Source: Olivibacter sitiensis DSM 17696
GTDB lineage: Bacteria; Bacteroidota; Bacteroidia; Sphingobacteriales; Sphingobacteriaceae
Assembly: GCF_000427965.1 (NCBI RefSeq)
Contig: NZ_ATZA01000001.1
Location: 62,001 to 126,000, forward strand
Direction: 5' to 3'
DNA: 64,000 bases
The position numbers and the translations under genes were made by a program. The notes under the pieces are model-generated. The model did not search any database and was not told where the DNA came from. It worked only from the letters and a program-made list of their open reading frames with translations. Below, one piece after another: positions 36,378 through 51,774 of this stretch (position 1 is the stretch's first letter; each line of letters opens with the position of its first letter).

Positions 36378-36414
36378 TTTATTGATGAACAAATGATGAA
36401 CTAAATTGATAAGA

Positions 36415-37524
36415 ATGAAAAGAGTGATATTGAGCGCTATATTGGCTACACCACTGGCAGTATTCTGTCAGGAAACCTATACTATCGAAGGGAAAGTAGG
36501 CGATTTGAATGCTCCTGCAAAAGTATACCTTTCCACTCGCGGTGGCTTGGATTCTGCTGATATTGTGAACGGTGTTTTCAAATTTTCTGGAGAGGTAGAG
36601 CGCCCTACCGCGGCCACTTTGGTACTGGCTCACAAAGGTGAGGATATCCGGCAACAGCGTGAGGCCGATGCCTTGAACCTGTACCTTGTCGAGGGCACCA
36701 CTACCGTGGCCTCTGCCGATTCGCTTTCCAAGGCTACGCTCGCCGGAACGGAACTCAACAAAGATCAGGGAGAGCTAAATGTAGCCCTGCGCGAGGTGAA
36801 AAAGCTAGAGGCAGATTTGATGTCTTTCTACTATGGCACCTCTGACGAACAACGTCAGTCGCCGGATTTCGAAAAACAGGTGGAAGAAAAGGTGGAAGCC
36901 ATGCAGTCTGCCCAGTTAAAGGTGCAGGAAGATTTTGTGAAGACGCACCCTTCCAGCTTAGTAAGCCTCTATACGGTGTCGCGGATAGATCCAAAGCGCG
37001 ACTTTGAGAAATCAAAGGCCTTGTTTGAGATCCTATCCAACGATCTCAGGGATTCGGAGATTGGTAAGGAATATAGAGAGCGCCAAGACAAAGTGGCAGC
37101 TACTCAGGTAGGGAAAATAGCTCCGGAATTCACACAGGCAGATACGACCGGCAAGCCCGTATCGCTCTCGTCTTTCAAGGGTAAGTACGTGCTGGTAGAC
37201 TTTTGGGCCAGCTGGTGCGTCCCTTGTCGTCAGGAAAACCCCAATGTAGTAGCGGCATTCAACAAATACAAGGACAAGAACTTCACCGTGCTGGGCGTTT
37301 CTCTAGATAGGCCCAATGCGCGCGAGGCCTGGCTGGGCGCCATTAAGGCCGATGGCTTGGCATGGACACAAGTATCCGACCTGAAGTTCTGGGAAAATGA
37401 GGTGGCTGTGCAGTATGGTGTGAGGAGCATCCCGGCCAATTACCTCATCGATCCAGAAGGCAAGATCGTGGCCGTAGACTTGAGGGGAGAAGATTTGGTC
37501 AGCAAACTGGAAGAACTGCTTTAG
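36415..37524 (+). CDS. TlpA-family disulfide reductase with DUF4369 domain
   Basis: Periplasmic thiol-disulfide oxidoreductase (369 aa). It has a signal peptide (MKRVILSAILATPLAVFC), an N-terminal DUF4369 beta domain (about 22-110, YTIEGKVGDLNAPAKVYL), a helical linker, and a C-terminal thioredoxin fold (about 235-369). The redox motif is WASWCVPCRQENP; the cis-proline loop is VRSIPANYLIDPEG. It is monocistronic, with its own promoter and terminator (37543-37580). Such proteins reduce cytochrome c or other exported proteins; the specific partner is not evident here. Confidence 0.9.
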   Translation: MKRVILSAILATPLAVFCQETYTIEGKVGDLNAPAKVYLSTRGGLDSADIVNGVFKFSGEVERPTAATLVLAHKGEDIRQQREADALNLYLVEGTTTVASADSLSKATLAGTELNKDQGELNVALREVKKLEADLMSFYYGTSDEQRQSPDFEKQVEEKVEAMQSAQLKVQEDFVKTHPSSLVSLYTVSRIDPKRDFEKSKALFEILSNDLRDSEIGKEYRERQDKVAATQVGKIAPEFTQADTTGKPVSLSSFKGKYVLVDFWASWCVPCRQENPNVVAAFNKYKDKNFTVLGVSLDRPNAREAWLGAIKADGLAWTQVSDLKFWENEVAVQYGVRSIPANYLIDPEGKIVAVDLRGEDLVSKLEELL

Positions 37525-42608: not shown

Positions 42609-42721
42609 ATTGGTGGCTCCCGGTCGTTCTCACAGTTGATGCGGCCAAATTCACATTTCAGCATCTTGCCACAAGATACTCCTCGTATATTTATGGCCAT
42701 ACGGAAAAATACCATAAAATA

Positions 42722-44203
42722 ATGAAGCGGATAAGTTATATAAATCGTGGTATCACCCTATGCCTGCTTTTTTTAATGGGCCGGGGGGATGCGTTAGGGC
42801 AAAAACTGAGCGGTAAGTTCCAGCATCTCAACAACAAGGAGTTGATTGTGATGACACTCCGCGACTTTGTCTACATGGAAAGAGATACGTTGTATGCAGA
42901 CGATGATGGTTATTTTGCGTTGGAGCTGCAGATGGACACACCCGGCTATATATGGTTATGGGGTTCTGATTTCAGGAATGAGGAGATCTATCTCCTGCCC
43001 AAGGCTGACCTGCACATCGAGGCCGATTGCTCCGATGCGTTGACGTTTTGGCAAACGCAACGATATACCGGTTCTGCTGCCTTGTATAATAATTTCCTTG
43101 CCGACCTGCGGCGCAATAAGTTACTAAAAGAGCATGCCTATGACGCAAAGACATATCGCCTGCCCAAGGAAGAGTTTGTTCCTGCCATAAACAAGTATTA
43201 TGCCTTACGCGATAGTATCAAAAGGGCTTTTTTTGAGGGCAATGTGCATATTTCAGGCTTGAAAGACTTCATGCTATTGGACAGTATACATAAGGCATAT
43301 AACCAGATATCTGTGTGGCGCTCTTATATGCAATTTCTCCCCAAGGAAGAGCAAAACACATTTTACGCGAAATATATAGCACCTTATGCATACGATCAGC
43401 AGAATGATTGGCATTACTTGACCTCTAGTAATTACCGATGGTTTTTTGCTGCCCATACTAGACGACAATTTGATTTGGCCAACGAAGAAGGACAAAAGCA
43501 GGGACATGAGCCATTGGCCTATCATGCCTATTATGAAAGAGTACCCGAATTAATGGGAAAGAGCCTCATATGGCCCCTGCAACGTTATGTGGTCGAAACT
43601 ATATTGGAGGGTATGACCATGGAATATAAAACGGCGGAAGATAGCTTACTTTCATATTATGACCGTACTATGAATGCCCTTTATACCATTATGGGACATG
43701 AAGAAAGGAAAAAATCCTATAGGACGAAAATCTCCGACATCAAACTATTTAGGCTTGCCGTTATGGCGGGGCAACCTGCTTTTCCGTTCGAGCTTCGGGA
43801 TACCTTGGGCAATACCATCCACCTAGCCGACCTCGCGGGAAAAACGGTATATGTCGATTTTTGGGCCAGCTGGTGCGGACCCTGCATTGCCGAGTTTCCA
43901 GCAGCCAGGGAATTGGAAGCTGAATTCAAAAGTGACGATCGTCTACTGTTTATCTCCGTGTCATTGGACGACAGGGAAACAGATTGGAGAAAGGGCATCA
44001 AGCAGCACAAGCCGGTTGGACAACAGTACTGGGCTCAAGGCGGTTTCAAGAGCGAATTGGCCAAGCGATACAACGTGTATGCCATTCCGCACTATATGTT
44101 ACTGGACGAAGGAGGGAGGTTTGTCCAGTACAAAGCTCCGCGACCCAGTCAGGGGGGATTACAGGAAATGCTCCATGCCATCTTAAAAGAGGAAAAGAAA
44201 TGA
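42722..44203 (+). CDS. TlpA-family redoxin upstream of the LytS kinase
   Basis: Exported thioredoxin-like protein (493 aa). A signal peptide (MKRISYINRGITLCLLFLMG) leads into an N-terminal beta domain (about 25-115) with GYIWLWGSDF, a helical domain (about 120-340) and a C-terminal thioredoxin fold with YVDFWASWCGPCIAEFP near residues 375-395. The cis-Pro loop is VYAIPHYMLLDEG. The start at 42722 is chosen because upstream in-frame starts lie inside the previous gene. Its stop overlaps the start of the kinase gene by four bases (ATGA), so the redoxin and kinase are translationally coupled. Confidence 0.85.
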   Translation: MKRISYINRGITLCLLFLMGRGDALGQKLSGKFQHLNNKELIVMTLRDFVYMERDTLYADDDGYFALELQMDTPGYIWLWGSDFRNEEIYLLPKADLHIEADCSDALTFWQTQRYTGSAALYNNFLADLRRNKLLKEHAYDAKTYRLPKEEFVPAINKYYALRDSIKRAFFEGNVHISGLKDFMLLDSIHKAYNQISVWRSYMQFLPKEEQNTFYAKYIAPYAYDQQNDWHYLTSSNYRWFFAAHTRRQFDLANEEGQKQGHEPLAYHAYYERVPELMGKSLIWPLQRYVVETILEGMTMEYKTAEDSLLSYYDRTMNALYTIMGHEERKKSYRTKISDIKLFRLAVMAGQPAFPFELRDTLGNTIHLADLAGKTVYVDFWASWCGPCIAEFPAARELEAEFKSDDRLLFISVSLDDRETDWRKGIKQHKPVGQQYWAQGGFKSELAKRYNVYAIPHYMLLDEGGRFVQYKAPRPSQGGLQEMLHAILKEEKK

Positions 44204-45798
44204 CTATTGACCGTTTTCGCTGTTTTCTTTGTTTTGTCCTGCTTTTATCGGGCATGACTTGGGCCAAGGCCGAAGAATACTACTCTGGGGGCCCTATACC
44301 CATCGTACTTAAGGTGTTCGGCGAGTTGACCGAAATGAGCGAATGGCCTCAAGGTCTCTCCGATAAGTACAAAGGAAAAATGAAATGTTTTCGCTTTGCC
44401 AGTCGCTATGTGGGGATGAATGCTGATTTTGGTTCGCCCTATTTTGATGACATCTTGTTGGGTGGTAAGGATAGGTCGGCAAGGGGGCGCAAGTACTATT
44501 ACAAAGTGCTGGACAGGCAGGAAAATGAGGTAACAAGGCATGCCATAGCCACCAAATTGGTCAGCAGGCATCCGAATGAATATGAGTTGATTCAGAACGT
44601 GATCAAGGTAAATAGGACAATACTTGATACCGCCATTCAAGTGCAGGATTTTTTATTGATCAATTTTTATGATAACGCGAACGATACCTTGATACAGGGG
44701 TATTACCTGGAAAGAGAGCCAATGCCTCTACAGCTGAAAAGCTATCGCAACTATGACGGTGGGGAAGTCATCATTACGGGGTACCTGACGAGCGATACAG
44801 CCGAGTCCAAGCGCTGGGAACGCGTGAACGAGCTGATTGAGACAAAGTACGGTCAGGCGCTTCGCTTGGTTTTTGGTAAGCCTACGGCCCTTATGGGCAA
44901 TCTGGGTTTGGAATATCAGTTGGTCAAGGATGGGCATACAGATACCCTGTCGGGAAAGAGCGATGGGGCAAGCATCGTATTGAAGCAATTGGAGGCGGGG
45001 AACGACTACTTGTTGACCGTAAGGTATGACTTCCAACCGGAATCACAATACGCCCGTCGCTACAGAATACGGGTGGTGCCGCTTTGGTACCAAACCACGC
45101 GTTTTTACGCCATTTCAAGTGGTCTTCTTTTTGCCGCGCTGGCAGGAGCTTTTTTATATACGATGTTGCTACGCTTGCGCAAGGCGAAAGAGTCGCAGTC
45201 CGAAACCACGCAGCAGCTCTTGTCCTTACAAGCCCAGCTCAACCCCCATTTCATCTTCAATGCGCTGAGTTCCATTCAGGGATTGAACAATACCGATAGG
45301 GTGGAGGAGGCCAACCAGTATCTGGGGGAATTCAGCTCCTTGCTGCGCAACACGCTCAAAAGCAGCGAGTCCATCACCAATACCTTGGATAAGGAGTTGG
45401 AAGTGCTTCGGGTGTACCTCAATCTGGAAAAGCTTCGTTTTGGATTTCGCTGGGAGATCGTCGTGGATGAATCCATACAAAGCGCCACCGTAGAGATCCC
45501 TACCCTCTTGCTGCAGCCTTTAGTGGAAAATGCAGTGAAGCACGGCGTGGCTGGTTTGGGCGAGGTGGGAGAAATTGTTCTTATGGTAAAGCGTTCCGAT
45601 GAGGACCTTTTGATCGAAATAAGAGACAGTGGATATGGGTTCTTGGAAAAGGAGGTAAATTTGGGCTATGGAATGAAGTTGACGAATGAACGTATTCGTC
45701 TTCATAATAGCATTAATCGAGATAGGCAAATACGATTGGATTATCGGATGGACACCAAAACAAGTGCAATGCTTACTTTTGTGAATTGGTTTTTATAA
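44200..45798 (+). CDS. LytS-type sensor histidine kinase with extracytoplasmic domain
   Basis: Sensor kinase (532 aa). After a signal-like N terminus (1-24) is a large extracytoplasmic domain (about 25-300), a membrane helix at about 304-323, then the cytoplasmic kinase. The His_kinase motif LNPHFIFNALSSIQ places the phosphoacceptor near H350; the ATPase N-box is LLLQPLVENAVKHGV and the G-box DSGYGF. A LytTR response regulator follows after 16 bases. The sensor domain is not one I recognise; its position beside a TlpA protein suggests it may sense envelope redox or sulfhydryl state. That is inference. Confidence 0.88.
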   Translation: MTIDRFRCFLCFVLLLSGMTWAKAEEYYSGGPIPIVLKVFGELTEMSEWPQGLSDKYKGKMKCFRFASRYVGMNADFGSPYFDDILLGGKDRSARGRKYYYKVLDRQENEVTRHAIATKLVSRHPNEYELIQNVIKVNRTILDTAIQVQDFLLINFYDNANDTLIQGYYLEREPMPLQLKSYRNYDGGEVIITGYLTSDTAESKRWERVNELIETKYGQALRLVFGKPTALMGNLGLEYQLVKDGHTDTLSGKSDGASIVLKQLEAGNDYLLTVRYDFQPESQYARRYRIRVVPLWYQTTRFYAISSGLLFAALAGAFLYTMLLRLRKAKESQSETTQQLLSLQAQLNPHFIFNALSSIQGLNNTDRVEEANQYLGEFSSLLRNTLKSSESITNTLDKELEVLRVYLNLEKLRFGFRWEIVVDESIQSATVEIPTLLLQPLVENAVKHGVAGLGEVGEIVLMVKRSDEDLLIEIRDSGYGFLEKEVNLGYGMKLTNERIRLHNSINRDRQIRLDYRMDTKTSAMLTFVNWFL

Positions 45799-45814
45799 AT
45801 AAACGGTCGGTTCT

Positions 45815-46561
45815 ATGAATGCACTGTTAGTGGATGATGAGGTAAACAACTTGGACAATTTGCAGGCCCTGCTCGGCAAGCATTGTCCGGAAGTATCGGT
45901 TGTGGGTAGAGCCGGCAATGTAGATACGGCACTTGAGCTTGTTCAATTGCACCGCCCAGACTTGATTTTCCTCGATATTCAGATGCCCGATAAAAATGGG
46001 TTTGAGCTGTTGAAGGCTTTGCCTGAAAGGGATATGGAAGTGATCTTTGTGACAGCTTACGATCAGTACGGTATACAAGCTGTGAAGTTTTCGGCCATCG
46101 ACTATCTGTTAAAGCCCATCAATATAGAAGAGATGAAAGGGGCGGTAGATAAGGTGAGACAGCGCTTGGAAAATCGAAAACGCAATCTGCAACTCGAAAA
46201 CCTGCTTGGCATCATCGAACAGCGCGTTGCAAAGGAAAATCACCGCATAGCCTTGCCTTCGCAAAAAGAGGTTCGTTTGGTGGAAGTTCAGCAAATCGTT
46301 CGGTGTGAGGCAACCAACAACTATACCAGTTTCTACCTGCTTTCGGGAGAAGAACTAGTTGTGTCCCGGCCTATATACGAATATGAAGAGCTATTGTCCC
46401 ATTATGGCTTTGTCCGATGCCACCAGAGCCATTTGGTCAATCGGAAACACGTACTCTCGTTTTTAAAGGAAGACGGGGGATACTTGCGCTTGGCCGACGG
46501 TTATAAGATACCCGTCTCTAGACAGAAAAAAGAAGAGGTAAAACGGTTGCTGGGATTTTAG
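45815..46561 (+). CDS. LytTR-family response regulator
   Basis: DNA-binding regulator (248 aa). The receiver domain spans 1-120 with the phosphoacceptor Asp in LIFLDIQMPD (about D52), the switch TAYDQYG and the conserved Lys in LLKPIN. The LytTR domain covers about 145-248 with NNYTSFYL and CHQSHLVNRKHV. It is the cognate partner of the upstream kinase (spacing 16 bases). Target genes are not evident within the window; the 311-base spacer to blaI follows. Confidence 0.94.
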   Translation: MNALLVDDEVNNLDNLQALLGKHCPEVSVVGRAGNVDTALELVQLHRPDLIFLDIQMPDKNGFELLKALPERDMEVIFVTAYDQYGIQAVKFSAIDYLLKPINIEEMKGAVDKVRQRLENRKRNLQLENLLGIIEQRVAKENHRIALPSQKEVRLVEVQQIVRCEATNNYTSFYLLSGEELVVSRPIYEYEELLSHYGFVRCHQSHLVNRKHVLSFLKEDGGYLRLADGYKIPVSRQKKEEVKRLLGF

Positions 46562-46574
46562 TTCAGTGGGTGTA

Positions 46575-46763
46575 TCTCGCTACATTTCGACAAGCTCAAT
46601 GACCGCTCGACATGATGGGTCGAAGATCATCATGCGGTGCTAGCGCAAGCCTAAGGGAACATTCCACAAGGGGCGGATAAGCTGTCTCGCTGCATTTCGA
46701 CCTTTTCTAAAATTAGCAGCATAATTGTTTGGATTAATCTTAGAATGCTCAATGACCGCTCGA
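46575..46763. repeat. Two copies of an intergenic repeat, one interrupted by a hairpin insert
   Basis: Copy 1 occupies 46575-46610 and starts TCTCGCTACATTTCGACAAG. Copy 2 has the same left part at 46685-46701 (TCTCGCTGCATTTCGAC) and the same right part at 46747-46763 (GCTCAATGACCGCTCGA), separated by a 45-base insert bounded by TTCTAA (46705-46710) and TTAGAA (46740-46745). Between the copies CATGATG pairs with CATCATG (46611-46634). No gene is seen in the 311-base spacer 46562-46872. Similar sequences are familiar in Bacteroidota intergenic regions; the class is inference. Confidence 0.6.
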
Positions 46764-46815
46764 TGGCTGCTGCACCATTCAAGATATTCGTACAATTGAA
46801 GATATTCATGAATAT

Positions 46816-46863
46816 TTTGAATATACGATTTTTGTCGTATCTTTACCTACGATCAAAATCGTA
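46816..46863 (+). promoter_or_regulatory. blaI promoter overlapped by two BlaI-type operators
   Basis: Two palindromes with the same half-sites and six-base spacers occur: TACGA-N6-TCGTA at 46824-46839 and again at 46848-46863, 24 bases apart. Between a -33 TTTG (46816-46819) and -7 TATCTTTA (46838-46845) lies the first operator; the second follows the -7 box and ends nine bases before the ATG at 46873. This is the arrangement expected for BlaI/MecI autoregulation. Confidence 0.75.
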
Positions 46864-46872
46864 TGATAAGAA

Positions 46873-47256
46873 ATGAGCAATAGACTGAAGCCAACGGAGA
46901 GCGAACTGGAAATATTAGGCGTGCTTTGGCAAGATGGCGCCAGCACGGTAAGGCAAGTGCACAACGTCATTACTGAGCGCCGCGAGGTAGGCTATACCAC
47001 CACGCTGAAGGTGATGCAGAATATGCTGGAGAAAGGATTGGTCAGTAGAGACGAGTCGAGCATGACCCATGTGTACGAGGCTCTCGTGAATAAAAAAAGT
47101 CTAGGAAAGCAGCTGATAGGTAAATTGACCAACGACCTGTTTTCCGGATCTGTTTCCCAATTGGTGATGCAGGCCCTGGGCAGTCAGCAGCCCAGTTCGG
47201 CAGAATTGAGGGAAATAAGGAAATACCTGGATAAACTAAAGAACAAGAAAAAATGA
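46873..47256 (+). CDS. BlaI/MecI/CopY-family transcriptional repressor
   Basis: Winged-helix repressor (127 aa) of the Penicillinase_R family. Its N-terminal DNA-binding domain (about 5-80, LKPTESELEILGVLWQDG and EVGYTTTLKVMQNMLEKGLV) and C-terminal dimerisation helices (about 85-127) are typical. The gene overlaps the M56 gene by four bases (ATGA), so repressor and membrane protease are coupled. Two palindromic operators lie just upstream. In staphylococcal systems the M56 partner triggers cleavage of the repressor; the same is likely here but the target genes and the trigger are unknown. Confidence 0.95.
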   Translation: MSNRLKPTESELEILGVLWQDGASTVRQVHNVITERREVGYTTTLKVMQNMLEKGLVSRDESSMTHVYEALVNKKSLGKQLIGKLTNDLFSGSVSQLVMQALGSQQPSSAELREIRKYLDKLKNKKK

Positions 47257-48608
47257 ACTGGGCTATTGATCATATCTTGGAAGCCATAGGATGGAGCATT
47301 GTCCATTCACTGTGGTTGGGTGCTATTCTTTATGTGCTACTGCTGTCTATGTTTAGGGCATTCCCTTCCTTAGATGCCAAGATGCGGCACCATCTTGCCT
47401 ACTTGGCTATGAGCTTTTTGTTCTTCCTCTTTGCGGGGATATTTCTCTACATCGCCGTCTTTTCTACTGGTGCGGTACAGGAGAATGTGCCAACGGCTAC
47501 GGTCGTGTGGCGATTGCCTAAGAGCAAAATAGCCCACTTGATGGACTACCTGTCGATGGCCTATCTGGTAGGCCTATCTGTTCAGCTCCTCTTGCTCCTT
47601 TTTTCCTACTACCGTGTCATGCGACTGAGAAAGACGGGTATTGTAGAACCTTCCGATGAACTCCATGGGTTGTTCCATCGAGTAAGGACCTACATGGGCG
47701 TTGGCCATCAGGTGTGTTTTTACCTGTCAGAGAAAGTAAGTACACCGCTTGTCATAGGCTTCATCAAACCTATTGTCTTATTTCCCGTGTCTCTCATTTC
47801 CCATTTGGATATGGTGCAGGTCGAGGCCATCCTCATCCATGAACTGGCGCACGTACGAAGGAACGACTACCTGCTCAACATATTTAGGCTATGTATGCGT
47901 ACTTTTCTTTTTTTCAACCCTTTTTCACTGTTAATCGACAAGCTGGTGAGGGATGAGCGAGAACATGCCTGCGACGAGATCGTATTACAAAGGACAGGAG
48001 CCCCCATTTTTTATGCAGAAACCCTTTTTAAGCTTGCCTTGCTACAGCAGCATCAACGAAGAAATGCGTTTTCCTTGGCGACTATGGGTAGGGGCAGATC
48101 GCAATTGGCTCATCGCATCCAACGGATTACGGCGATAAGAAAACAGCGTACTTGCATGCAGCACCAATTGATTACCATCGCCTTGATCTTTTTTGCCACT
48201 TTGGCTTTGGCATGGATCAAACCAAAACCACCAGGGGAAGTTCCGCCAGTCGAACAGTTCACTATCCGTATTGTCGATGGCTACAGGAAGGAATGGACAT
48301 TTCGCTCGAGTAACATGCAAGGTTTATGGGACTCATTAGATAATGTCAAGGGAGGGGGCTTCACCATTATAGATAACGAGAATGACATGGAACTAGTAGA
48401 CGCACTCCTAAAAATGCGGAAAATAGATTCAAACACGTCCGATTCGTTGAGACGCCTGTATGAATATGCGAAACGGCAGGGAAGGGAGGACTCCGTGTTC
48501 ACCTCGAAGGATGGAAAGACAAAGATTACCTTTATGTCATCAGGCTGTAGCTACATCGAAAATCTGTCGGGAAATACTCCTACACCGCCTTTCAATAGTA
48601 AAAAATGA
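47253..48608 (+). CDS. BlaR1/MecR1-type M56 membrane metalloprotease lacking a PBP sensor domain
   Basis: Membrane protease sensor (451 aa). Transmembrane helices lie at about 15-35, 48-70, 100-120 and 304-321. The zinc motif HELAH is at 196-200, and RDEREHACDEIVL contains the third ligand region. BlaR1 has a roughly 250-residue penicillin-binding domain at its C terminus; here only about 130 residues follow the last helix (322-451), with no SxxK motif, so beta-lactam sensing in the usual manner is unlikely. The tail contains IRIVDGYRKEWTFRSS and repeated charged helices. It overlaps blaI and the downstream TlpA gene by four bases at each end. Confidence 0.9.
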   Translation: MNWAIDHILEAIGWSIVHSLWLGAILYVLLLSMFRAFPSLDAKMRHHLAYLAMSFLFFLFAGIFLYIAVFSTGAVQENVPTATVVWRLPKSKIAHLMDYLSMAYLVGLSVQLLLLLFSYYRVMRLRKTGIVEPSDELHGLFHRVRTYMGVGHQVCFYLSEKVSTPLVIGFIKPIVLFPVSLISHLDMVQVEAILIHELAHVRRNDYLLNIFRLCMRTFLFFNPFSLLIDKLVRDEREHACDEIVLQRTGAPIFYAETLFKLALLQQHQRRNAFSLATMGRGRSQLAHRIQRITAIRKQRTCMQHQLITIALIFFATLALAWIKPKPPGEVPPVEQFTIRIVDGYRKEWTFRSSNMQGLWDSLDNVKGGGFTIIDNENDMELVDALLKMRKIDSNTSDSLRRLYEYAKRQGREDSVFTSKDGKTKITFMSSGCSYIENLSGNTPTPPFNSKK

Positions 48609-50002
48609 ACCAATTGTCCTTGAAACCAATTCTCGTACTTGTTTTATCAGTGTCAGGCTTTCTGTTTTCTAAGGGCTTTGCCCAAACCGAAAGTGTGGCA
48701 TTGCAAAGGAACATCCTGCAACAAAACATCCTGTTAAGAGATGTCATCATACCCCAATTGGAAAAGCACAAATTGCTCTTAAATACGGCAGAAAAGATAG
48801 ATAGCCTCTGTTGGACCATTAAAAGTCACTGGGAGCGTTATGTGGACGATTCCTTGAAGGTACAATCTTGGTTGCCCGAGCCCATTCTCAAGAACATGGA
48901 TGCCTATGCTTATATCCTGTGCATGAAGAGCCTGGAAGAAAAAATCGAACAAGATGATTGGGATACCCTGGACAAGTATCTTTTTAGTGAATACCTGCTG
49001 CCTTCCTTAGAAAGGGATTTGAATTATATAAAAGAAAATCATCTGGCTTATAAAGATCTGGAAATCATATGGATGCCTACTCTGAACAATGTGCTGTGGT
49101 ATGGGGTCAAATACGCATGGGACAAGCCTGCCTTTGATCGGTTCTCTGCCGTTTACTATGGTTTGGACCAGCTATTGCGCACAAAGGTCCCTATGGAAAC
49201 CACCTTGCAAAAACATAGGAGCAGTCTTTTTAATGCCATGCAGTGGTATCGCTATGATGTGGAGTCAAAAAGATATTTCTTTAATGGCCAATCAGACTTA
49301 GCTTTTTCCAATTGGGTAGCGGGTCTTTCGGCTAATAACTATCCAAAACCACTTGCCCTACCTTTTGGCAAAACCTTGCTAGATTACTTTTTAGACCGAG
49401 AGGAAAAAGACAAATGCTTTGCTGTTTTGAATAATTTAATGATCAATGTGGATGAAGATCTTCTGCCCAGAGATAGCCTGATCACATGGTATTCTAAGGT
49501 TGACAAAGAATATGGGCAGCAACTATACGAGGGCATGGATCATAAATTGTCTGGTAATAGGTTTGTAAAAAGAATGGCACTAGAAAAGGTGGTGTTACCA
49601 GGCGAGTGGAAGTTGTTGAACAAGCTCTTGAATGATGAAAAGATCAAGCAGGCGAACTATATTTTGGTAGACTTCTGGTATACCTCCTGCATACCATGCT
49701 TGAATGAGATTCCGGCATTGAATGCCTTTCACGAGAAATTGGCAGAACGTGATGGGATAGTGTTTTTGTCCATCAATGCCGATCATTTTGTTACGCGCAA
49801 AGACAAGTCTTATGTCAAAAAGATCATGGATGAAAAGGGGGTTGACTTTCCAGTATTTTTCGATGACGAAGTCCATCAGCTAACCAGACAACTGAAAGTC
49901 AATGGCTACCCTGCCAAGTTTATCTTAGACGCCGAAGGCTATTTGGTCACAAAGGCAGACGGAAGTGACATGACATTGAAAACATTCGAATCCTTTTATT
50001 AG
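48605..50002 (+). CDS. TlpA-family redoxin in the blaI-M56 operon
   Basis: Exported thioredoxin-fold protein (465 aa) with a signal peptide (MNQLSLKPILVLVLSVSGFL, cleavage near 27). A helical N-terminal domain of about 310 residues precedes the C-terminal thioredoxin domain with ILVDFWYTSCIPCLNEIPAL (redox motif CIPC) and a cis-Pro loop (VNGYPAKFILDAEG). Its start overlaps the M56 stop as ATGA, making it the third member of a tightly coupled operon. The N-terminal part is not recognised. It may be the protein that carries the envelope signal or the target of the regulation. Confidence 0.86.
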   Translation: MNQLSLKPILVLVLSVSGFLFSKGFAQTESVALQRNILQQNILLRDVIIPQLEKHKLLLNTAEKIDSLCWTIKSHWERYVDDSLKVQSWLPEPILKNMDAYAYILCMKSLEEKIEQDDWDTLDKYLFSEYLLPSLERDLNYIKENHLAYKDLEIIWMPTLNNVLWYGVKYAWDKPAFDRFSAVYYGLDQLLRTKVPMETTLQKHRSSLFNAMQWYRYDVESKRYFFNGQSDLAFSNWVAGLSANNYPKPLALPFGKTLLDYFLDREEKDKCFAVLNNLMINVDEDLLPRDSLITWYSKVDKEYGQQLYEGMDHKLSGNRFVKRMALEKVVLPGEWKLLNKLLNDEKIKQANYILVDFWYTSCIPCLNEIPALNAFHEKLAERDGIVFLSINADHFVTRKDKSYVKKIMDEKGVDFPVFFDDEVHQLTRQLKVNGYPAKFILDAEGYLVTKADGSDMTLKTFESFY

Positions 50003-50018
50003 TACAATGCCGTAATGA

Positions 50019-50813
50019 TCACTTCTTATTAGAAAACAACCAAGGCAATAAATCTGGCTCGGCAAAAGCCGGATCCCAACTATTGTGGTCGGCTTCTGGG
50101 TAAAACGTGCTCTTGGGCTGAGCACCTAGGTGCTGCAATTCGGCTACGATATCGTGTGAGAAAGTGGGTGGAACGACGTCGTCTCGCTCGCCATGGAATA
50201 TCCACAAGGGCATATGTTTGTATTTTTTGGCATTGCTGGGCAGGTCTCCCCCGCAAATGGCAAAAGCCGCGGCAAAGACCTTGGGCTTTCTGCGAAGCGT
50301 TTCATAGGTGCCCATGCCACCCATGGAAAGGCCACCGACATACACCTGGTCCAGCTTGGTAGTTGGCTCTTTCAGGGTCTTTTCCAACAGCCCGATGAAC
50401 AGTTTCATGCCCTTGGTCGGTTTCCCTTTCTTTTGAAAATGGAAGGAACGCTTGCCCAGACTGTCGGTCTGGATATGCACATTGCTCCAATAGCTATCGC
50501 TAGGGCACTGAGGGAAGATGACGATGGCTGGGTAATCGTTTCGGATATCTGATGCTACGAACAGCTTGGCTCCGTGTACCAATTGACTCTGGTTGTTGTT
50601 GCCGCGTTCCCCTGCTCCATGAAGTACGAAAAGGACAGGATAACTTTTTCCCGCATCGTAGTCTCTAGGGTAGAGGATGCGGTATGGAAGGGTGTCTTGT
50701 CCTTTAACAAATAGTTTTGCCTCAAAGGCCTCGACAACCGTTTTGTCCTGCGCATGGGATATACCAAAAGACAGGAACAGGGCGAACAAGGTGTATTTTA
50801 GTGTGCGTATCAT
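50019..50813 (-). CDS. Alpha/beta-hydrolase, secreted PHB-depolymerase-like esterase
   Basis: Secreted serine hydrolase (264 aa) with signal peptide MIRTLKYTLFALFLSFGISHA. The nucleophile motif GLSMGG places Ser near 163, with acid in HGERDDVV and His in ADHNSWDP. The opening strand PVLFVLHGAGERG forms the oxyanion-hole region. Similar proteins are annotated phospholipase/carboxylesterase or feruloyl-esterase-like. The ATG at 50813 (MIRTLK) is 13 bases after the preceding esterase gene; the ATG at 50840 would overlap that gene. Natural substrate is unknown. Confidence 0.86.
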   Translation of the reverse strand: MIRTLKYTLFALFLSFGISHAQDKTVVEAFEAKLFVKGQDTLPYRILYPRDYDAGKSYPVLFVLHGAGERGNNNQSQLVHGAKLFVASDIRNDYPAIVIFPQCPSDSYWSNVHIQTDSLGKRSFHFQKKGKPTKGMKLFIGLLEKTLKEPTTKLDQVYVGGLSMGGMGTYETLRRKPKVFAAAFAICGGDLPSNAKKYKHMPLWIFHGERDDVVPPTFSHDIVAELQHLGAQPKSTFYPEADHNSWDPAFAEPDLLPWLFSNKK

Positions 50814-50826
50814 AAGTATAGCTTTA

Positions 50827-51774
50827 TTATTTTTTTCCAAAGCCCAATTGGTCGAGCCACGCTATGGCATGGACAAACCAATCATCGCTGGTGGTACGGT
50901 TGTGCAAGCCAAAACCGTGCCCTCCATTGGAATAGGTAATGAGTTTGTGGGCTATACCCTGTTTTGCCAAGGCTTCGTCAAAGTGTCTGCTATTGGCAAT
51001 GGGGACGGCCGTATCGTCTTCGGCATGCACCAAAAAGGTAGGTGGGGTGTCCTTATCTACCTGCAATTCATTGGAATACAACTTTACATCCTCTGCACTG
51101 GCCGATTTGCCCAAGAGATTTTCCCGAGAGCCCATGTGCGTGATGCTGCTGTCCATACTGATGACCGGATAGATGAGCAACATGAAGTCGGGACGAAGAG
51201 AGATACCTCCCGTATCACCGATCTTGGAATCCTTGAAATGCGTACCTGCAGTGGAAGCCAGGTGACCACCGGCAGAAAAGCCCATGATCCCTATCTTGTT
51301 AGGGTCTATGCCGTAAGACGATGCGTTTTTGCGTACCAAATAAATGGCCTGCTGCGCATCTTGAAGGGCTCCGATACGCTTATCTTCCATAATAATATTG
51401 TTTGGAAGCCTGTTTTTTACAACAAATGCGGCAATGCCCCGTGCATTGAATGCTCGGGCCACTTCTTCGCCCTCATGTTGAAAAGCCAGGCCAACATAGC
51501 CACCGCCGGGAAATATGATGACAGCGCTGCCCGTAGTTCTCTCCCTGGGCGCAGGGTAATAGCGCATGGTGGGGACACTGATGCCGGTGACGAAGGCATT
51601 ACTGCCATCGCGCCCATCCACTTTTTCCTTGAGTTTGACGGAGGCTGGTTTTGTGTTCGGTATTTTCCCTTCGGGATAGATGGGTATATAGTCGGACTCT
51701 TGGGCTTTCATGTTTTTTGCCTGGAAAATCATCGTCAGTAAACAGATGGAATAGATCAATATATGTTTCATCAT
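50827..51774 (-). CDS. Alpha/beta-hydrolase, acetyl-xylan-esterase-like
   Basis: Secreted esterase (315 aa) of the hormone-sensitive-lipase/BD-FAE-like type. It has a signal peptide (MMKHILIYSICLLTMIFQ), the oxyanion motif IFPGGGYVGLA, nucleophile GFSAGGHLAS and late triad residues in HAEDDTAVP and NGGHGFGLHN. It precedes the second esterase gene by 13 bases, and the pair are probably cotranscribed. Together they could deacetylate hemicellulose side chains, though no glycoside hydrolase is linked. Start is one of two adjacent ATG codons (51774 or 51771). Confidence 0.86.
   Translation of the reverse strand: MMKHILIYSICLLTMIFQAKNMKAQESDYIPIYPEGKIPNTKPASVKLKEKVDGRDGSNAFVTGISVPTMRYYPAPRERTTGSAVIIFPGGGYVGLAFQHEGEEVARAFNARGIAAFVVKNRLPNNIIMEDKRIGALQDAQQAIYLVRKNASSYGIDPNKIGIMGFSAGGHLASTAGTHFKDSKIGDTGGISLRPDFMLLIYPVISMDSSITHMGSRENLLGKSASAEDVKLYSNELQVDKDTPPTFLVHAEDDTAVPIANSRHFDEALAKQGIAHKLITYSNGGHGFGLHNRTTSDDWFVHAIAWLDQLGFGKK

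Follow-up and report, generated by a model that had tools for sequence, protein, structure and literature searches.

Two adjoining putative envelope-signal operons in Olivibacter sitiensis, each with a TlpA-like redoxin gene

Gene content of the locus

The window analysed here is a stretch of 64,000 nucleotides from Olivibacter sitiensis DSM 17696 (contig NZ_ATZA01000001.1, positions 62,001 to 126,000), and its subject is a run of six genes on the plus strand that falls into two units, tlpA1-lytS-lytR (unit A) followed by blaI-M56-tlpA2 (unit B), which are probably two separate regulatory circuits. Unit A opens with tlpA1 (42722-44203) for a TlpA-like redoxin with a WCGPC motif and a signal-peptide-like start (Pfam Thioredoxin_8, 2e-13), continues with lytS (44200-45798) for a His_kinase-family sensor kinase with an N-terminal exported-type domain (Pfam His_kinase, 1.8e-21) and ends with lytR (45815-46561) for a LytTR response regulator (Pfam Response_reg and LytTR, 8.2e-23 and 1.7e-17). 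Unit B comprises blaI (46873-47256) for a Penicillinase_R repressor (Pfam 1.8e-23), the gene of an M56 membrane metalloprotease with the motif HELAH (47253-48608; Pfam Peptidase_M56, 3.4e-31) and tlpA2 (48605-50002) for a redoxin with SCIPC and a signal-peptide-like start (Pfam Redoxin, 2.9e-10). ATGA junctions join tlpA1 to lytS (44200-44203), blaI to M56 (47253) and M56 to tlpA2 (48605), and a 16-base-pair (bp) gap without overlap separates lytS from lytR. Overlaps of four bases are common inside operons. The motifs HELAH, NPHFIFN, ENAVKH and LDIQMP are all intact. A first-pass annotation made from the letters alone had described these six genes and three ATGA junctions, and open reading frames together with Pfam domains bear this description out. 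The presence of two redoxins within six genes is only mildly unusual, because the species' own 5.05-Mb genome contains 23 Thioredoxin_8 matches.

Between lytR and blaI lies a spacer of 311 bp (46562-46872) that contains the putative blaI promoter and, within 46562-46815 (no strand assigned), two pairs of 17-nucleotide direct repeats. These repeat pairs occupy 46575-46763, and a 19-base core of theirs has no exact match elsewhere in the fetched loci.

A putative LytR operator and its lineage

How might unit A be regulated? Just upstream of tlpA1 lies a putative operator for the LytTR-type regulator LytR (42630-42656, plus strand), a direct repeat of TCACAG and TTCACAT with a 21-bp period, and 9 bp past it a consensus scan predicts the unit A promoter (42666-42693, plus strand; TTG, 17 bp, TATATTTA). 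In the window the pattern TCACR-N15-TTCACAT, searched with up to one mismatch, has a single match, which is exact and lies at tlpA1 (0.66 expected). Across the fetched loci the strict pattern occurs only there, before lytS and before tlpA495 of genome G028 and before lytS of genomes G076, G123, G283 and G716, and spacers of 8-25 other than 15 give 0 or 1 match. A relaxed form of the repeat stands about 60 bp before tlpA424-lytS-lytR of G147. Moreover, TCAC[AG]-N16-TCACA has 13 matches in the 1.84 Mb examined as compared to 0-6 at each of 23 other spacings; LytSR-linked promoters account for eight of the 13 (the lytS operon of seven genomes and G028 tlpA495), and the other five are elsewhere. 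Taken by locus, the repeat is present at seven of the eight loci examined of this LytSR lineage, the eighth being an operon on C30 of the species' own genome.

According to PMC6193735, LytTR regulators bind 9-bp repeats that are mostly 12 bp apart and mostly 10 bp upstream of the -35 element. The window repeat, with its 21-bp period and its 9 bp to TTG, fits the geometry described there, and the same distance of 9 bp separates the repeat from TTTG at G028 tlpA495. LytR has the receiver and the LytTR DNA-binding domain of such regulators, and the repeat would supply the 21-bp-period direct-repeat operator typical of LytTR systems. The TCACA repeat provides a defined candidate for the operator of a LytSR lineage, by which the targets of that lineage could be listed.

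For the LytS sensor part a near full-length relative was found in one of 150 other genomes of the family (G028, whose LytS is 39% identical over 540 aligned positions); weaker relatives are found in G076, G123, G147 and G283 and, outside the family, in G716, and the weak matches in G576, G597 and G617, in frames of more than 1000 residues, were left out of this comparison. LytR is 52-63% identical to the four homologues compared and 48% to its paralogue on C30. In G147 the order is tlpA424-lytS-lytR with gaps of 61 bp and 0 bp, and in G028 (L139 4051-9780) lytS-lytR is accompanied by tlpA507 261 bp upstream and by a convergent tlpA495. The C30 operon (L144 3026-7114) reads lytS578-lytR271-tlpA510 in one direction with 59 bp from lytR to tlpA; its LytS is 40% identical to that of the window over 210 residues, and since this operon was fetched through its redoxin it is not an unbiased find. 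Overall, a redoxin gene stands directly behind the LytR-type repeat in three of seven genomes (the window, G147 and G028, where it forms a unit of its own), and LytSR-linked redoxins occur at two of the six other loci of the LytS query (p ~0.002, assuming an estimated ~4300 genes per genome). Together with the C30 operon these cases uphold the proposed tie between the redoxin and LytSR.

Two further observations concern these loci. On C30 (L144) another LytS-type pair at 1082-2967 diverges from the lytS-lytR-tlpA operon, and in G076 (L140 8201-9427) and G123 (L141 7442-8704) LytSR is followed by a protein of 408-420 residues, a possible alternative cargo.

Unit B and putative BlaI operators

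The putative blaI promoter (46816-46845, plus strand; TTTG, 18 bp, TATCTTTA), predicted by the same kind of consensus scan, is overlapped by two TACGA-N6-TCGTA dyads 24 bp apart. The first, putative BlaI operator 1 (46824-46839, plus strand; TACGATTTTTGTCGTA), lies between the promoter elements, and the second, putative operator 2 (46848-46863, plus strand; TACGATCAAAATCGTA), 24 bp downstream of it. A Penicillinase_R domain combined with dyads at its own promoter would place this repressor with BlaI/MecI; the BlaI-specific NCBIfam models match it below their cut-offs. Dyads of the TACG type are found at 40 of 57 blaI genes of a first set, and TACG-N8-CGTA dyads at 52 of 132. Genome-wide the exact dyad pattern occurs at seven places as compared to two for a reversed control pattern: two at the window blaI, two at the start of a paralogous blaI on C60 and three inside long open frames (C1:178179 and 178308, 129 bp apart, and C33:19411). 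Because the other exact sites belong to the C60 blaI or lie inside genes, tlpA2 appears, judged by exact sites, to be the only non-regulatory gene under this BlaI. Within the window tlpA2 is thus tied to BlaI-M56 by operon and operator, and a BlaI-M56 operon with one redoxin as its only visible cargo and with located likely operators makes a small testable case.

The operators of redoxin-linked blaI genes share a peculiarity. A TACGAA half-site is missing in all four close-gap redoxin-linked operators (window 46824-46863, L081, L117 and L123) and in one of 48 others (p = 2e-5, post hoc), and the BlaI recognition helices of the redoxin-linked set read LKQMQVM, LKLMQVM and LKVMQNM as compared to the usual LKLMQIM. 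L117 and L123 have one dyad each and L190, where the redoxin is more distant, has none. When the half-site prediction was set beforehand for a hold-out sample, TACGAA was present in 33 of 33 non-redoxin operators, the sample containing no redoxin-linked operon.

How general is the pairing of M56 with a redoxin?

M56 proteases adjoining blaI are plentiful in these genomes. The loci sampled are part of the matches listed, mostly the better-scoring ones, and genes in fetched loci were called from our own open reading frame picks with home-made profiles, which may have overlooked a strongly divergent redoxin. On this basis blaI lies directly upstream in 129 of 147 M56 genes, and a redoxin comes next in five of these 129 pairs, namely in the window, L081, L117, L123 and L190 (448 bp after M56). 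A hold-out of 40 further BlaI-M56 pairs contained no redoxin, so that the combination is rare, with four of 168 other pairs. Among co-directional genes directly after M56 redoxins make up 4/79, as compared to 2/373 of other co-directional genes (p = 0.0099), and pooling with the hold-out leaves a weak enrichment (p = 0.033). A quickly built M56 tree of 54 rows requires four changes to account for the four close-gap redoxin-linked rows, the mean for shuffled rows being 3.9; with the linked rows scattered in this way a conserved M56-redoxin clade was rejected, and the supposed conservation of the M56-tlpA pair is not supported. In L101, L102, L104 and L105, which hold the closest relatives of the window M56 (99*), M56 is not directly followed by a redoxin gene. 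At L105, which is without blaI, a redoxin lies two genes upstream of M56 on the same strand. With M56 as query, a scan of a genome collection returned no more than four loci, all of them distant and from other phyla.

Seven third genes sampled after BlaI-M56 comprise three TPR proteins, one outer-membrane beta-barrel, one TonB_C, one propeller and one without match, and since they differ in kind the third place of BlaI-M56 operons looks like a variable cargo place. In L254, L255, L256, L257 and L260 an 815-residue protein follows BlaI-M56 after 29-35 bp, and in L165 a neighbour of similar size belongs to the outer-membrane beta-barrel proteins.

The two redoxins

Both TlpA1 and TlpA2 have the thioredoxin fold with CxxC that marks TlpA/ResA redoxins, and their starts, read by eye, predict export to the periplasm. 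With TlpA/ResA-like thiol-disulfide oxidoreductases they share the C-terminal thioredoxin fold with its CxxC motif (WCGPC and SCIPC), and they differ from them in that each carries an N-terminal part of about 340 residues; the ResA model scores 60 and 47 on the two proteins against a cut-off of 170. The Thioredoxin_8 and Redoxin matches are limited to the C-terminus, and Pfam names nothing in the parts before the thioredoxin fold of either protein, in agreement with the large unrecognised domains reported in the first-pass annotation. However, TlpA1 has distant full-length homologues in L105_7037, the redoxin upstream of the L105 M56 gene (27% identity over 451 residues), and L127_3845 (24% over 493), so that only the N-terminus of TlpA2 is an orphan: for its 312 residues no credible homologue was found in 394 other genomes of the class (best E 0.0025). 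Single-sequence AlphaFold2 models are of low confidence, with a mean predicted local distance difference test (pLDDT) of 41 for TlpA2 and 35 for TlpA1. A further TlpA-like redoxin is encoded at 36406-37524 of the window, about 6 kb upstream, and, unlike tlpA1 and tlpA2, has a counterpart at the same place in four of four congeners.

Relation to known systems

With LytTR systems such as LytSR, BtsSR, AgrCA and ComDE unit A shares a LytTR regulator, a His_kinase-family kinase, a presumably self-regulated operon and a 21-bp-period direct repeat that closely precedes the putative promoter. It differs from them in its TCACA half-sites, in the redoxin as first gene and in the sensor, which has a signal-peptide-like start, an exported-type domain and, by eye, one membrane span instead of the multi-span LytS sensor. 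LytS proper has a membrane sensor of the 5TM-5TMR type; no such Pfam match was found in the LytS of unit A at E up to 1. The NCBIfam BtsR and LytR models score below their cut-offs on unit A (137 of 246 and 112 of 375).

Similarly, unit B resembles BlaI-BlaR1 and MecI-MecR1, for which PMC7593790 gives the BlaR1 logic for comparison, in a blaI gene overlapping an M56 protease gene, in dyad operators at the promoter and in a local cargo gene. The M56 protein has the HExxH motif and adjoins blaI as BlaR1 and MecR1 do, but it lacks the class-D beta-lactamase-like sensor domain, and its cargo is a redoxin. Its tail, read from the sequence, is about 125 residues long and without SxxK, and with no S..K anywhere in the protein the acylated-serine sensor of BlaR1/MecR1 is absent; the blaR1_generic model covers residues 94-313 only, with 86.4 bits against a cut-off of 400. 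No paper on BlaI-M56-redoxin or LytSR-redoxin operons was found in a literature search judged by titles and the beginnings of abstracts, subscription papers being mostly outside its scope.

The block in related species

An arginase-family gene flanking the block is found in five of five genomes of the genus, and in the four congeners it adjoins an orthologue of the esterase gene at 50827-51774 (55-61% identical). Because these two flanking genes adjoin there, the congeners are without both modules and without a 273-residue esterase at this place, and the conservation of the six-gene order that had been proposed as a check fails in four of four. The gene of this smaller esterase (50019-50840), likewise missing from the syntenic region of all four congeners, lies at the edge of the accessory block. 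Searches of the four congeners gave no match for the LytS sensor and, with TlpA2 as query, only weak thioredoxin-domain matches in two of them; other M56 genes are carried by all four, three to six each among the matches listed. The G+C fraction of 42609-50002 is 0.453, with flanks of 0.478 and 0.461, and is no strong anomaly.

One system or two, and the role of the redoxins

Do the six genes work together? The first-pass annotation had suggested a single, joint system for sensing the redox state or thiol stress of the envelope, with each redoxin contributing to the signal that its sensor receives. The coupling of redoxin to sensor through ATGA junctions in both units would suit such a system, as would one exported-type cysteine each in LytS (C63) and in the M56 tail (C432) and the LytS-type genes found near BlaI-M56 in L072, L108 and L126. 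However, these three of 174 fetched loci have no redoxin, none of 40 hold-out loci has a LytS-type gene, and LytR shares only 29-31% identity with the regulators of L072 and L126, so that these loci give no support to a joint module; no other fetched locus has both modules. The cysteines are not kept either. The cysteines of LytS are at positions 8, 11 and 63, of which 8 and 11 fall inside the signal-peptide-like start, and in an alignment C63 has no counterpart in G028, whose LytS has no Cys, or in G076. Elsewhere cysteines before the kinase motif are at other positions (C122 in G147, C47 in G076, C331 in G123 and G283 and C321 in G716), those of G123, G283 and G716 lying by eye near the membrane span, and beyond residue 252 there is no cysteine in any of the other four M56 proteins linked to a redoxin. 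Since C63 and C432 are thus without counterparts, a conserved thiol switch, as expected in the exported part of a thiol-sensing kinase or protease, is not seen at the sequence level, and the redoxin as signal finds no footing in the sensors. Moreover, the operators of the two units differ, and a search of the window found neither an exact BlaI site at tlpA1 nor a LytR-type site near blaI. A BlaI regulon shared by both units was rejected for want of an exact site at tlpA1. Together with the block missing from the congeners and the four nearest M56 relatives without a redoxin directly downstream, this makes the combined system very improbable. What stands of the original interpretation is the link of a redoxin to LytSR and, locally, that of tlpA2 to BlaI-M56.

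Alternatively, each redoxin might act back on its own sensor as an accessory or feedback modulator and so be input as well as output. The position in the operon and the sites for self-regulation would be in line with this, and coupled translation would favour matched amounts of the partners. But resemblance among the redoxins behind the repeat is confined to the thioredoxin domain, although LytR is 52-63% conserved, so that no fixed partner surface on the redoxin is to be expected, and tlpA495 of G028 is a separate unit; a modulator role is therefore unlikely. It could also be imagined that frequent redoxin genes landed by rearrangement in two accessory operons as chance neighbours with no functional link. 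The number of Thioredoxin_8 matches in the genome, the rarity and scatter of the M56-redoxin pairs, the empty hold-out and the weak pooled enrichment all point this way. The LytSR-linked redoxins at two of six other loci, the repeat before the unlinked tlpA of G028 and the C30 lytS-lytR-redoxin operon argue against it, and chance as an account of both units is unlikely.

The arrangement is best read, on balance, as two independent circuits, each with a redoxin as cargo, and several points weigh against this reading. The TCACA motif was picked out post hoc by comparing upstream sequences of the window with those of G028, and its presence in G076 was noticed afterwards; the strict form was confirmed out of sample in G123, G283 and G716, the first two of these being near copies of each other, and for G147 the pattern has to be relaxed. 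The repeat was not found before G028 tlpA507 or in the C30 locus, and no clear promoter was found after it in G076, G123, G283 and G716, that at G028 lytS being doubtful. No redoxin lies near LytSR in G076 and G123, and in G283 and G716 it is lytS itself that follows the repeat, the sequence examined ending before the downstream flank. The likeness of the redoxins in the thioredoxin domain only also counts here, and the upstream redoxin of L105 could be an older link that a downstream-only count misses. A BlaI-like sequence with two mismatches at 42672-42687, near tlpA1, is uninformative, because the window has 24 such matches at up to two mismatches against 15.5 expected.

Under the reading as two circuits, two self-regulating envelope-signal operons would adjoin in a block that the congeners lack. 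In unit A an envelope signal would activate the kinase LytS, and phosphorylated LytR would bind the TCACA repeat with its 21-bp period, immediately before the tlpA1 promoter, and raise expression of tlpA1-lytS-lytR in a positive feedback. The best reading of the redoxin is that of LytR output, since the redoxin genes behind the repeat differ while the repeat is kept. In unit B BlaI would occupy the two TACGA-N6-TCGTA dyads over its own promoter and repress it until an activated M56 protease inactivates BlaI, presumably by proteolysis, and derepresses blaI-M56-tlpA2, with the redoxin in place of the beta-lactamase of the bla system. Both redoxins, once exported, may act on envelope thiols.

More tentatively, the two units could belong to a family of envelope-signal switches with exchangeable periplasmic redoxin cargo, in which LytSR keeps a largely fixed TCACA operator while its redoxins are swapped, and BlaI-M56 operons repeatedly gain a redoxin with the operator half-site drifting from TACGAA; the window species might then carry a neighbouring pair, one of either kind, as an acquired block for envelope repair, a possibility that we consider rather doubtful. 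If the redoxins are outputs, experiments that treat the redoxin as the sensor look in the wrong place.

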